This document shows, in pieces, positions 20,670 through 26,033 of a stretch of DNA of 64,000 bases. The notes beneath the pieces were generated by a model. That model worked only from the letters and a program-made list of their open reading frames with translations, was not told where the DNA came from and made no database searches. The DNA lies in NCBI GenBank assembly GCA_036001465.1, contig DASYUH010000096.1:1-64000 (forward strand). The letters are read 5' to 3'. Made by a program: the position numbers and the translations under genes. The stretch is from Candidatus Polarisedimenticolia bacterium (GTDB taxonomy: Bacteria; Acidobacteriota; Polarisedimenticolia; Gp22-AA2). Positions within the stretch are counted from its first letter, which is position 1. Each line of letters begins with the position of its first letter.

Positions 20670-22513
<1,844 letters not shown>

Positions 22514-22517
<4 letters not shown>

Positions 22518-23278
22518 GCAGGGCCTCTCCCCTGCGCATCGCCCACCGCGGCGCCTCCGCGCACGCACCCGAGAACACCCTGGCCGCGTTCAAGGAGGCG
22601 ATCCGGCTGGGCGCCGATCTCATCGAGTGCGACGTCCACCTGAGCGCCGATGACGTGCCGGTGATCATCCACGACGACACGGTGGAGCGGACGACCAACG
22701 GGCGGGGGACCGTCGCGGCCCTCGCCTGCGCCCGGCTGCGGCGTCTCGACGCCGGGGCCTGGTTCTCCCCCCGCTTCAAGGGCGAGCGCATCCCGACCCT
22801 CGAAGAGGCGCTGGAGTGCGCGCGCGGCCGGTGCGGCCTGAACATCGAGATCAAGGGACCGTCCGGTCGCCGCGGATCGGGATCCTCGGCCTCACGGGCC
22901 GCGGCCGGATCGTCCGGCGTGGCGCGCGCCGTGGCGCGCGCGCTGCGGCGCACCGGCTTCAGGGAGCCGGTCATCGTTTCCTCCTTCTCGGCGGCCGCGC
23001 TTCTGGCCGCACGCGCCCACATGCCGCACGTCCGGCTCGGCCACCTGGCCTCGCGATCGCTCCGCGGCCTGCGCGCGGCCCACCGAAGGCTCGGACTCTA
23101 CGCCGTGCACCCGCACGTCCGTCTTGCCGCGTCGCGCCGCGTCCGCCTGGCCCACCGCCTCGGCCTGGTGGTCCTGTTCTGGACGGTGAACGATGTTCCC
23201 CTGATGCGGCGCCTCCTGGCCCTCGGCTCTGACGGGCTGATGACCGACGACCCCGCGCTCTTCCAGGAGCTGGGCTGA
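22514..23278 (+). CDS. Glycerophosphodiester phosphodiesterase
   Basis: A 254-residue GDPD-family enzyme. The hallmark motifs are intact: IAHRGASAHAPENTLAAF (catalytic His and Glu), LIECDVHLSADDVPVIIHDD (metal-binding Glu/Asp and second His), and an internal NIEIKGP. A C-terminal TM-barrel strand is VLFWTVNDVPLMRRLLALG. The enzyme hydrolyses glycerophosphodiesters to glycerol 3-phosphate and an alcohol. No signal peptide is seen, so it is probably cytoplasmic. The TTG start overlaps the typA stop by four bases, implying translational coupling. It may feed the same lipid-recycling metabolism as the lipase-like genes, by inference. Confidence 0.92.
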
Positions 23279-23283
23279 GCGTT

Positions 23284-23304
23284 GCCCCGCCGACGGTGCG
23301 GGGC
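23284..23304 (+). terminator. Hairpin after the glycerophosphodiesterase gene
   Basis: GCCCCGC (23284-23290) and GCGGGGC (23298-23304) with a 7-base loop, six bases after the stop codon, followed by GCTTCCCC. A weak T-run makes termination plausible but not certain. Confidence 0.45.
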
Positions 23305-23334
23305 GCTTCCCCTCGCGCGGCACGTCGAGGCGTG

Positions 23335-23353
23335 CAGCCATGCATCATGGCTG
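23335..23353. repeat. Perfect CAGCCATG/CATGGCTG hairpin
   Basis: CAGCCATG-CAT-CATGGCTG with 8-bp arms and a 3-base loop, followed by TTT. It may be a second terminator for the upstream operon or a protein-binding palindrome. Confidence 0.4.
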
Positions 23354-23407
23354 TTTGGAGTGACCCACCCAACGGCCTGGCGGTGAGGCAACAGGCTCGG
23401 ACCGCCA

Positions 23408-23618
23408 CGGCCGAGGGGGCGGCGACGTGGGGCTTGCGGGGCCTTCTCGAAGCGCGCCGGACATGCCCGCGAATTCAAGCGGGCCCGGCGCGCGAGAGAG
23501 AGGCGAGCCGGAGCGTAGGCCCGGTCGAGCAGTTCCGCTCGCCGCGCCGTGGTCCCCGGGCCGATCCGCGACGGCGGAGCCGTGCCCCGCAAGCCCCACG
23601 CCGCCGCCCCCTCGGCCG
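23408..23618. repeat. 211-bp structured element bounded by 35-bp inverted repeats
   Basis: The arms at 23408-23442 and 23584-23618 are inverted copies matching at 34 of 35 bases. Inside are further hairpins: GCGCGCCGG (23452-23460) with CCGGCGCGC (23485-23493), enclosing GCCCGC/GCGGGC (23465-23470 and 23479-23484); GGCGAGC (23502-23508) with GCTCGCC (23537-23543); and a small CGGC/GCCG stem near 23574. There is no convincing ORF in it. It ends 22 bases before the -35 box of the sat promoter. It could be a nonautonomous mobile element, a structured RNA or a cruciform regulatory site. Confidence 0.6.
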
Positions 23619-23640
23619 GAGAGGCGCGCCGGAAACGGCG

Positions 23641-23669
23641 TTGACAGCCGCCCCCCCTCACCGTATAGT
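23641..23669 (+). promoter_or_regulatory. Promoter of the sat leader
   Basis: TTGACA (23641-23646), a 17-bp spacer and TATAGT (23664-23669): a near-consensus sigma-70 promoter. The expected start is near 23676, giving a leader of about 230 bases before the sat start codon. Confidence 0.8.
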
Positions 23670-23706
23670 TGCGGCTCCAACAGTGCAGCGAGGGGCTCCG
23701 GGTTTC

Positions 23707-23811
23707 ATGGATCAAAACCGCATCGCATCCCGGCTCGACGGCTCTCCGGAAGCGCCCCTTGGGCGCGGCCGCTGTTGTCGCACGACGCGGCGTCCGGCTT
23801 CCGGGGGATAG
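23707..23811 (+). CDS. Putative cysteine-codon leader peptide of sat
   Basis: A 34-codon ORF in the sat 5' leader, beginning ATG at 23707 and ending TAG at 23809-23811. A GAGGGG sequence lies 11 bases before the ATG. Codons 23 and 24 are tandem cysteines (TGT TGT, 23773-23778), flanked by Arg and Thr codons. Its last codons (TTCCGGGGG, 23799-23807) are also the RNA segment able to pair with the 3' arm of the following terminator. It has no resemblance to a functional protein; its proposed role is to sense charged cysteine tRNA. It is not proven to be translated. Confidence 0.5.
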   Translation: MDQNRIASRLDGSPEAPLGRGRCCRTTRRPASGG

Positions 23812-23883
23812 GGCGGCACGAGGCAGACTCAACGACACACGATGCCAAGACCCTTTCCGGTCCCCCGGAAAGGGTTTTTTCTT
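23746..23883 (+). promoter_or_regulatory. Candidate transcription attenuator of sat
   Basis: Four complementary segments are visible. Segment 1, CCGGAAGC (23746-23753), pairs with segment 2, GCTTCCGG (23797-23804). Segment 2 extended, TTCCGGGGG (23799-23807), is the exact complement of CCCCCGGAA (23862-23870), which covers part of the loop and the 3' arm of the terminator, so it can act as an antiterminator. The terminator itself is 23851-23874. A ribosome paused at Cys codons 23-24 would leave segment 2 free; one at the stop codon (23809) would cover it. The pairings are seen in sequence; the regulatory model is inference. Confidence 0.55.
23851..23883 (+). terminator. Canonical intrinsic terminator in the sat leader
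   Basis: CCCTTTCCGG (23851-23860), loop TCCC, CCGGAAAGGG (23865-23874), then TTTTTTCTTT (23875-23884): a perfect 10-bp stem with an ideal T-run. It stands only about 10 bases before the sat ribosome binding site, in the same orientation, so full-length sat mRNA requires readthrough. Confidence 0.9.
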
Positions 23884-23906
23884 TGCAGGAGAGGAGAACC
23901 GACGTC

Positions 23907-25625
23907 ATGAAGGACGACAAGGGGGTTGTCACGGAGGCCGCCGCTCCGCGCCGGGCGGCCCGTTCGGGTCCCACGCCGGTGGGCGGGACGCTCGTCGACC
24001 GCGTGCTCACGGGGACGGCGAGAGATCGGGCCAGGGACCTGGCTCCCCGGCTTCCCAGGCTGACCCTGACCCTGGACCAGATCGTCACCCTGGAGATGAT
24101 CGCGACCGGCGTCCTGAGCCCGCTGCAGGGGTACCCCGGGAGCGAGGACTACGCCTCGATCCTGGACCGCGGGAGGCTCGCCGACGGCACGCCCTGGACG
24201 CTGCCTCCGACGCTCGCGCCGGCCGATGAAGACGGCCGCCGCGTGGTGGACCGCCTCAAGGAGGGGGACGCCGTCGCCCTGGTGGACCAGGCCGGGGCCC
24301 CCGTGGCCATCCTGCATCTTCAGGAACAATACGGCTTCGACAAGAACGAGCGGGCGCAGAAGCTGTTCGGGACCACCGAGAGGCGGCACCCCGGAGTGGA
24401 CGCGATCTTCCGCCGGCTCGGGGACGTGTCGCTCGCCGGGCCCATCGATCTCATCGACAAGACGCACTGGGGCCCGTTCGAGAAGCACCGGCTGGAACCG
24501 AAGGACGCCTGGCGCCTGTTCCATGAGGTGCGCGGCTGGAACACGGTGGTGGCCTTCCAGACGGCCAACCCGCTGCACCGGGGCCACGAGCATCTGCAGA
24601 AGTGCGCCCTGGAGATCTTCGACGGCCTGTTCATCCACCCGGTCGTCGAAACGACCCGGCGCGCCTATTTTCGCAACGAGTTCCGCATCCAGGCGTACGA
24701 GGTGGCGCTGCGCGAGTACTTCCCCGCCGACCGCGTGGCGATGGCCCCCCTGCGCATCACCATGCAGTACGCCGGACCGCGCGAGGCGATCCTGCACGCG
24801 CTCATCCGCCGCAATTTCGGCTGCACGCACTTCATCGTCGGACGGGATCATGCCGGCTTCGGGAACTTCTACGATCCGTACGCGTCGCAGCAGATCTTCT
24901 CGGACTACGGTCGCGACGAGCTCGGTATCGAGCCGATCTTCTTCCGCGAGTCGTTCTACTGCACGCGCTGCGGCGCCGTGGCCTCGGAGAAGACCTGCCC
25001 CCATGGACGCGAGCAGCACATCACCATGAGCGGCACCGGCGTGCAGGACATCCTGCGCTACGGCTTCCTCCCGCCCAAGGAGGTCCTGAGGCCCGAGGTC
25101 GGGCAGGTGATCCTTCAGGGAATCCAGCCGAAGGGGAAAGGCCCGGACGGACACGCCATCAAACCGGTGGGCGAGACCATCAAGGGGCTGTTCCCCTCCT
25201 ACCTCACGCACACCCGGCTCGGGGGTCCGAAGCGCCCGCAGCCGCTCGATCCGAAGTCCCTCAACGCGCGCGACCTCGAGGCGGCGCTGCGGGACACGCG
25301 CGACAACGCCTCGCGCGTCTACGAGCGAGTCTACGAGACGTTCGCCACGCTGTTCGACATCGAGCGCGGCGCCAGCTCGACCCTGGTCGACGAGGCGCGC
25401 CGCAAGGCGATCGCCATCCAGGAAGAGCTGATCCGGGCGCTGGAGCAGAAGCTTGAAATCGCGACCGAATCGGTCGAGGATCCGTACATGTACCAGGACC
25501 GGGACGAGGTCGCGCGCGAGCTCGAGGTGGCGCGCCGCATCCTCGGCGAGCTGCGGGGGGGCGGCGACGGGGATTTCAGGGCGCGCGTCTGGAACCAGCG
25601 CCCCTACGAGGATTACCGGAGCTGA
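23907..25625 (+). CDS. sat: Sulfate adenylyltransferase (ATP sulfurylase)
   Basis: A 572-residue single-chain ATP sulfurylase making adenosine 5'-phosphosulfate from sulfate and ATP, the first step of sulfate assimilation. An N-terminal PUA-like region (about 60-200) is followed by the catalytic domain with QTANPLHRGHEHL (Q218; HxxH of the nucleotide-binding loop) and GRDHAG near residue 312. A metal-binding-like CTRCGAVASEKTCPHG near 352 is found in many bacterial and archaeal Sat proteins. After the usual end there is a C-terminal extension of about 130 residues, helical and charged, with no kinase P-loop, so it is not a PAPS synthetase fusion. ATG 23907 follows AGGAGAGGAG; the ORF is open far upstream, but that part is noncoding leader. 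No other sulfate-assimilation gene is nearby. Confidence 0.93.
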   Translation: MKDDKGVVTEAAAPRRAARSGPTPVGGTLVDRVLTGTARDRARDLAPRLPRLTLTLDQIVTLEMIATGVLSPLQGYPGSEDYASILDRGRLADGTPWTLPPTLAPADEDGRRVVDRLKEGDAVALVDQAGAPVAILHLQEQYGFDKNERAQKLFGTTERRHPGVDAIFRRLGDVSLAGPIDLIDKTHWGPFEKHRLEPKDAWRLFHEVRGWNTVVAFQTANPLHRGHEHLQKCALEIFDGLFIHPVVETTRRAYFRNEFRIQAYEVALREYFPADRVAMAPLRITMQYAGPREAILHALIRRNFGCTHFIVGRDHAGFGNFYDPYASQQIFSDYGRDELGIEPIFFRESFYCTRCGAVASEKTCPHGREQHITMSGTGVQDILRYGFLPPKEVLRPEVGQVILQGIQPKGKGPDGHAIKPVGETIKGLFPSYLTHTRLGGPKRPQPLDPKSLNARDLEAALRDTRDNASRVYERVYETFATLFDIERGASSTLVDEARRKAIAIQEELIRALEQKLEIATESVEDPYMYQDRDEVARELEVARRILGELRGGGDGDFRARVWNQRPYEDYRS

Positions 25626-25651
25626 CAGGATTCCGGACCCGTTTCGCCGTC

Positions 25652-25680
25652 TTGACAAAGGATCACCCTTGTGATGTATT
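25652..25680 (+). promoter_or_regulatory. Promoter of the histone-like gene
   Basis: TTGACA (25652-25657), a 17-bp spacer and TGTATT (25675-25680), about 45 bases before the GTG start and directly after the sat stop. Confidence 0.6.
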
Positions 25681-25721
25681 GATTATCGTTTTCCAACAGA
25701 ACATGCAGAGGGGGTGAGACC

Positions 25722-26033
25722 GTGGCCAAGAAACGAGCAAGGCGCAAATCGCCTCGGCGGAAGAAGGCGGCACGCAAGTCTTCCGCGAAGAGGGCGTCGG
25801 CCAGAAAGGTCGCCCGCCGGAAGAAGACGGCCAGGAAGGCCCGTCCCAGGAAGAAAGCCGCCGCCCGCACGACGGCCCGGCGCAAGCCCGCGGCGCGGGC
25901 CGCAGCCCCGAGGCCAGCCCCGGTGTCGACTCCTTCGAGCCAGGCCCCGGCGATCTCCCCCTCCGGGATGCCCGCGACCGGGATCACGCCGGCCTACGGC
26001 ACCGGGTTCCCCTCGTCCGACGAGGAGGAATAG
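25722..26033 (+). CDS. Lys/Arg/Ala-rich histone H1-like protein
   Basis: A 103-residue very basic protein. Residues 1-65 consist almost only of Lys, Arg, Ala and Ser in AKKxARRK-like repeats (MAKKRARRKSPRRKKAARKS), like eukaryotic H1 tails and bacterial AlgP/Hc1-type proteins. Residues 66-103 are Pro/Ser/Gly-rich and end in an acidic DEEE. It probably binds DNA or RNA nonspecifically and may help compact the nucleoid. The GTG start is preceded by GAGGGGGTGAGA. It has its own promoter and a strong terminator, so it is a single-gene unit. Low sequence complexity prevents a firm family call. Confidence 0.75.
   Translation: MAKKRARRKSPRRKKAARKSSAKRASARKVARRKKTARKARPRKKAAARTTARRKPAARAAAPRPAPVSTPSSQAPAISPSGMPATGITPAYGTGFPSSDEEE

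Follow-up and report, generated by a model that had tools for sequence, protein, structure and literature searches.

Immediately upstream of the sat gene of Candidatus Polarisedimenticolia bacterium there is a leader with its own promoter, a small ORF with tandem Cys codons and an intrinsic terminator, which raises the question of whether a ribosome translating the leader decides if sat is transcribed. From the sequence and from RNA modelling we put the probability that this leader is a ribosome-mediated (trp-type) transcription attenuator sensing charged tRNA-Cys at roughly 90%. Under this control sat would very probably be switched on only when cysteine is short. The window (the whole 64,000-nt stretch of DNA that was analysed) comes from a genome of 4.58 Mb in 114 contigs, and all its features described below are on the forward strand.

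Layout of the sat leader

The promoter (TTGACA-17-TATAGT, 23641-23669) was of the sigma-70 type and agreed with the consensus at 11 of 12 positions, with a predicted transcription start at about 23676. It was the sole promoter-like site in 22000-26000, where shuffled sequences gave an expectation of 0.1. The leader peptide ORF (23707-23811) had 34 codons, encoded MDQNRIASRLDGSPEAPLGRGRCCRTTRRPASGG and was preceded by only a weak and distant Shine-Dalgarno-like sequence, which counts against the attenuator. The putative control codons, the tandem Cys codons TGT TGT, were codons 23-24 (23773-23778) and the stop codon TAG was at 23809-23811. Segment 2, the 5' strand of the antiterminator (TTCCGGGGGA, 23799-23808), overlapped the end of the ORF, with GGGCGGCA (23811-23818) just after it. 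The intrinsic terminator (23851-23884) read CCCTTTCCGG-TCCC-CCGGAAAGGG at 23851-23874, comprising a stem (23851-23860/23865-23874) and a TCCC loop, and ended in the T tract T6CT3 at 23875-23884. The sat ribosome binding site GGAGAGGAG was read at 23888-23896. The predicted controlled gene, sat (23907-25625), encodes a sulfate adenylyltransferase (ATP sulfurylase) of 572 aa, with Pfam matches to PF01747 and PF14306 and matches above cut-off to the NCBIfam models PRK04149 and sopT. An earlier note on this DNA had listed the promoter, the 34-codon ORF, the tandem TGT codons, the terminator with T6CT3 and the sat ribosome binding site, and all of these were present where it placed them, base for base.

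The same note had proposed an exact complementarity between the end of the ORF and the terminator. We recovered it, with TTCCGGGGG at 23799-23807 complementary to CCCCCGGAA at 23862-23870, and it could be extended to 10 Watson-Crick pairs between segment 2 and 23861-23870. The latter, TCCCCCGGAA, is the 3' strand of the antiterminator and consists of the terminator loop and the first part of the terminator 3' arm. The proposed pairing holds with a correction, as segment 2 can pair with the loop and the 3' arm as well as with the 5' arm. In the computed pairing, the antiterminator and the terminator were mutually exclusive.

The promoter, the ORF with its tandem Cys codons, its overlap with segment 2, the terminator and the exclusive pairing were thus read from the sequence or computed, and from this anatomy of a cysteine attenuator and its conservation we infer the following mechanism. 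The leader ORF would be translated, with transcription coupled to translation. When Cys-tRNA is scarce, the ribosome would stall at codons 23-24 and leave segment 2 free, and the free segment 2 would pair with the emerging terminator sequence, allowing polymerase to continue into sat. With ample cysteine, the ribosome would instead get to the stop codon inside segment 2 and hide it, the terminator would form, and transcription would end near 23884. In the window's genus the leader ORF ends within segment 2, and a ribosome finishing the peptide would therefore cover segment 2 directly. In two genomes of sister genera (G005 and G006), segment 2 would be hidden by pairing with the Cys codons in a strong hairpin, as in E. 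coli trp.

Conservation of the sat leader in the family

We found a complete sat element directly before sat in all seven sat-bearing genomes of the family, the window's own included. An eighth family genome (G007, 63% complete) gave no sat match and is outside this count. Each of the seven leaders consisted of TTGACA-N17-TATAGT, an ATG ORF of 22-43 codons, an antiterminator strand, an intrinsic terminator and then the sat ribosome binding site. The ATG was 26-33 nt from the predicted start in the six relatives. Every leader ORF had 2-6 Cys codons, always with a tandem pair or more. The seven peptides were MDQNRIASRLDGSPEAPLGRGRCCRTTRRPASGG, MVQNGSIIGCCCRTGGRADSGG, MLKRPVRPRSMAPEPCRCCRSGGRVVSGR, MFRNGVHYRFCSVRQARGSRPASRVVVAACCCRTLRRPVSGR, a 43-codon one ending in GCRRCCSGRRPASGG, MAGKEKSNTCSTFAAALRVRGLLPVLGGGTCCCCPICR and MSGNGGTSHRFTGRLVRSRAHLGCCCPICP. 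Peptide length and the N-terminal part varied freely and the sequence diverged outside the Cys cluster; the same freedom was not seen in the Cys cluster itself, in the spacing between promoter and start codon or in the RNA that follows. In dinucleotide shuffles, an ATG ORF of at least 20 codons with CC that ended before the terminator arose in 0.2% of cases for the window leader and in 0.1-0.65% for each of the six relatives, and it was observed in seven of seven. The stop codon was inside segment 2 in all five members of the genus, a feature whose conservation in close relatives the earlier note had named as support; this did not extend to G005 and G006, where the leader ORF stopped earlier.

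The note had also set beforehand, as refuting, relatives that keep the terminator without the ORF or its Cys codons. No relative showed this, which supports the attenuator reading. A further possibility that it named, an aptamer-like core in place of the Cys leader, was not seen either, and there was no match to an Rfam aptamer. The result bears on the alternative that the terminator is governed by a metabolite-binding riboswitch of a new kind, responding for example to SAM, cysteine or sulfide, and that the ORF and its Cys codons are incidental. Riboswitches, too, place a terminator that has a competing pairing partner ahead of a metabolic gene, but the window had no Rfam match at the gathering threshold, T-box, S-box and SAM families included, and the loci of five relatives, searched at E values up to 1, gave one unrelated sub-threshold match only. 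Moreover, the conserved parts were the Cys codons and the complementary strands rather than a compact core, the distance from ORF start to tandem Cys codons ranged from 27 to 96 nt, and the unrelated leaders before cysH described below have the Cys codons alone in common. We therefore consider a riboswitch very unlikely, and the attenuator remains the preferred reading.

The sat of G014, from another family of the class, was 62% identical and was without such a leader. A covariance model of the sat element, run on 41 genomes of the class, gave one true site per genome and nothing convincing outside the family. Its reverse-strand matches were discarded as extra copies, being the palindromic terminator. 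Among 46 sat upstream regions from outside the family, a Cys leader was present in one, probably by chance.

RNA pairings in the sat leader

The terminator kept 10 of 10 pairs in all seven genomes. For the antiterminator, 88.6% of cells were paired across the seven genomes, against 33-69% for slid versions. The compensatory changes that the earlier note had suggested looking for were present at one position, where both sides had changed (GGGA/UCCC in some genomes and GAGA/UCUC in relatives), and at one antiterminator position GC, GU and AU all occurred; a formal covariation test was weak and not significant by itself with seven related sequences. In G001 the loop GAGA breaks the antiterminator pairing, and its segment 2 can pair with the terminator 5' arm instead. 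The antiterminator duplex was stronger than in shuffled sequences (Fisher p = 1.6e-5 over seven leaders), a value that overstates independence because the seven leaders are related.

GGGCGGCA can also pair with the Cys codons (TGTTGTC, 23773-23779). In G005 and G006 this 1:2 hairpin was strong, with 11-13 bp, and exceeded chance (p = 0.006 and 0.045, respectively). It was weak in the window leader and no better than shuffled in the sat leaders of the five genus members. The naked window leader was not unusually stable overall (z = -0.84), and the case for a switch is independent of overall leader stability.

These pairings also bear on the alternative that the ORF encodes a real small Cys-rich protein, such as a metal or redox peptide, made from its own promoter, with the hairpin as its terminator or as a processing site. 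The ORF does have a promoter and a terminator of its own, and Cys pairs could bind metal. However, neither the length of 22-43 codons nor the sequence outside the Cys cluster is conserved, the ORFs of the genus end within the antiterminator strand, and in six of the seven genomes the strand at the ORF end or beyond it complements the terminator loop. In the cysH leader, the run of six to eight Cys codons doubles as a hairpin arm. A small protein is accordingly very unlikely, and we retain the attenuator.

Computed ribosome switch

Each of the seven leaders was folded without the bases under the ribosome and with only 18 nt of the terminator present. For a ribosome on the Cys codons, the expected number of segment 2/terminator pairs was 7.7-14 across all seven leaders and reached at least 8.6 in every leader but G002. 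With the ribosome at the stop codon (23809-23811 in the window leader), the antiterminator was removed and had 0 pairs in all five genus members. The naked RNA of G005 and G006 already hid segment 2 (0.2-0.3 pairs). When the footprint alone was masked and the upstream RNA was left free, the switch held in six of seven leaders, with 12 pairs in the window leader; it failed in G006 and was weakened in G002.

With the full terminator present, the terminator was preferred at equilibrium in nearly every state, so that the outcome must be decided kinetically, as it is in other attenuators. For the same reason, the fold with and without 23773-23810 masked that the earlier note had suggested did not discriminate; the terminator won in both, and the switch was visible only when the terminator was partly transcribed.

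A second leader before cysH

A weak match of the sat covariance model in the window's own genome (G000:C23, E = 0.19) lay directly upstream of cysH, which was identified by PF01507. This cysH leader (L214, G000:C23:1-3600, minus strand) had an ORF with a GTG start, MSLFKANSSMLRRGAVAARAMVSPATCCCCCCCRPTRPTGGSGPGGSDE, containing seven consecutive Cys codons, followed by the terminator AACCCACTGCC-ACC-GGCAGTGGGTTTTTT and then by cysH. By inspection of its translation, the ORF after cysH reads like an assimilatory sulfite reductase. A streptolysin S model also matched the cysH leader; its score was below cut-off, and the Cys run is the most likely cause of the match.

All eight family genomes had a Cys-run leader before cysH, with six to eight Cys (CCCTCCC in G005), and all eight kept the terminator. 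GGCGGCAGCGGG, the antiterminator strand, also paired with the Cys codons, which made up one arm of the resulting long hairpin. In seven of eight genomes, G005 being the exception, the naked cysH leader RNA folded mostly into the 1:2 hairpin, without antiterminator. With a ribosome on the Cys run, 7-11 antiterminator pairs were obtained in all eight. The computed switch was sharper here than at the sat leader, and in the model the cysH attenuator appears to be the stronger of the two.

From sequence and folding, sat and cysH thus appear to be under control of one kind, which would cover at least two steps of assimilatory sulfate reduction. The cysH leader lends independent support to the attenuator reading of the sat leader. 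Since a second putative attenuator stands before the cysH-sulfite reductase operon in the same genome, assimilatory sulfate reduction would be under joint cysteine control. The control of sat advanced in the earlier note is supported, and its scope was too narrow, cysH-sir being under what looks like the same kind of control.

A genome of the same order (G010) had a match of the cysH-leader model (L227, G010:C38:3950-4077, E = 9e-5) before a cupredoxin-like gene. Its leader ORF, VTVPGAEGASHLPIRWRWCAYYRRSPRPAAG, had Trp/Tyr/Cys in place of the Cys run. It is possibly an attenuator relative that was re-used for another signal, or one that has decayed.

Cys-rich leaders across Acidobacteriota

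Regions of up to 3.5 kb upstream of cysH were taken from 49 other Acidobacteriota genomes, and the last 900 nt were scored. In 13 of the 49, cysH was preceded by a small ORF containing a stretch of 8 residues with 4 or more Cys, compared with 1.0% of shuffles and 2 of 49 on the antisense strand. A Cys leader was present in none of 28 cysK/cysM/cysS upstream regions. The Cys ORFs were followed by strong terminators in G048 (L249), G167 (L334), G101 (L328), G121 (L309) and G146 (L323), and by weaker ones in G166, G173 and G047. The G048 leader, from an extra genome, preceded an operon starting with a cobA/cysG-like gene and comprised MKKTMCSMCCCCCMCRGRAREAFDGGAS, a terminator and an antiterminator. 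Antiterminator strength was mixed in the cysH leaders of the phylum (combined p = 0.006). A poly-Cys DNA pattern was rejected as a census; it matched 116 of 297 genomes, the window's own at the cysH leader only, and was useless because most matches look like ordinary coding repeats.

No clear terminator followed the Cys-rich cysH leader ORFs of G085, G073 and G126. Cys-rich ORFs lacking a clear terminator occurred in several genomes of family f18 (loci with Cys-rich leader ORFs: L303, L304, L305, L307 and L317). Control by translational coupling or Rho-dependent termination instead of the intrinsic terminator, which has been proposed for cys leaders of Actinobacteria, would fit G085, G073 and G126 and the terminator-less cys leaders reported in Actinobacteria (PMC1262725), but a strong terminator with its T tract is kept in all seven sat and all eight cysH leaders of the family, and we consider such control very unlikely here.

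The cysH leaders of the phylum show no obvious sequence relationship, pointing either to rapid divergence or to repeated origins. We lean slightly towards a wider reading of the attenuator, in which attenuation by Cys-tRNA is the main control of assimilatory sulfate reduction throughout the phylum and has evolved there repeatedly, with non-homologous Cys-run leaders and intrinsic terminators before the cysH operon (and before sat in this family) in at least six families.

Relation to known attenuators

The sat leader resembles E. coli attenuators of the trp/his type in its leader peptide rich in the regulating amino acid, in the competition between an antiterminator and an intrinsic terminator, and in its place before a gene of the same pathway. 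In contrast to these, it would sense cysteine. In the window's genus it has only a weak 1:2 hairpin, and segment 2 would be hidden by a ribosome at the stop codon; the classic 1:2 hairpin is seen in the sat leaders of the sister genera and in the cysH leader. One family thus holds two architectures of one putative attenuator, with the stop codon inside segment 2 or with the classic 1:2 hairpin, and offers a case for the study of attenuator evolution.

Tandem-Cys uORF attenuators with a terminator have been predicted before cysS in Rhodobacterales as the uORFC-8-2 motif (PMC8632094). The motif has in common with the sat leader the tandem Cys codons in a uORF, a hairpin containing these codons (weak in the window's genus) and a terminator with a U run. 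However, it belongs to Alphaproteobacteria and is found exclusively before cysS (cysteinyl-tRNA synthetase), whereas no Cys leader was present upstream of cysS in the family studied here. In Actinobacteria, Cys-run leaders without conserved terminators precede cys and cbs genes (PMC1262725), and papers citing Canestrari et al. 2020 describe mycobacterial Cys leaders as leaderless, cysteine-responsive attenuators. As far as these sources and citing papers describe them, such leaders resemble ours in having a small ORF with Cys-codon runs ahead of genes for cysteine biosynthesis, but differ in that the leader here has an intrinsic terminator and an ORF starting about 31 nt after the predicted start.

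The mechanism class is already known. The accessible part of the open-licence literature on Acidobacteria and attenuation, leader peptides or terminators described nothing of this kind, and the use for sat and cysH in Acidobacteriota was not found described there. With the attenuator reading, Cys-tRNA becomes the sensor and sulfate assimilation, through sat and cysH-sir, the target pathway, and the control acquires a phylogenetic spread. The reading also names a candidate control for a core pathway in a poorly studied phylum, the host being an uncultured soil acidobacterium. Any cultured acidobacterium with a Cys-rich cysH leader could serve to test it.

Other features of the sat locus

Just upstream of the sat promoter there was a 35-nt inverted repeat with arms at 23408-23442 and 23584-23618, 97% complementary and separated by 141 nt. 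No such repeat was seen in the 500 bases before sat of G001 and G004, and its core had no further copy in the window. The repeat (23408-23618) looks like a small inserted element of the MITE or REP kind.

The sat product has a conserved C-terminal extension of about 165 residues past the ATP-sulfurylase domain (residues 405-572, 25119-25625). The extension had no Pfam match and no matching solved structure. It was also present in relatives at 58-62% identity, a Hydrothermarchaeum and a Bacillota MAG.
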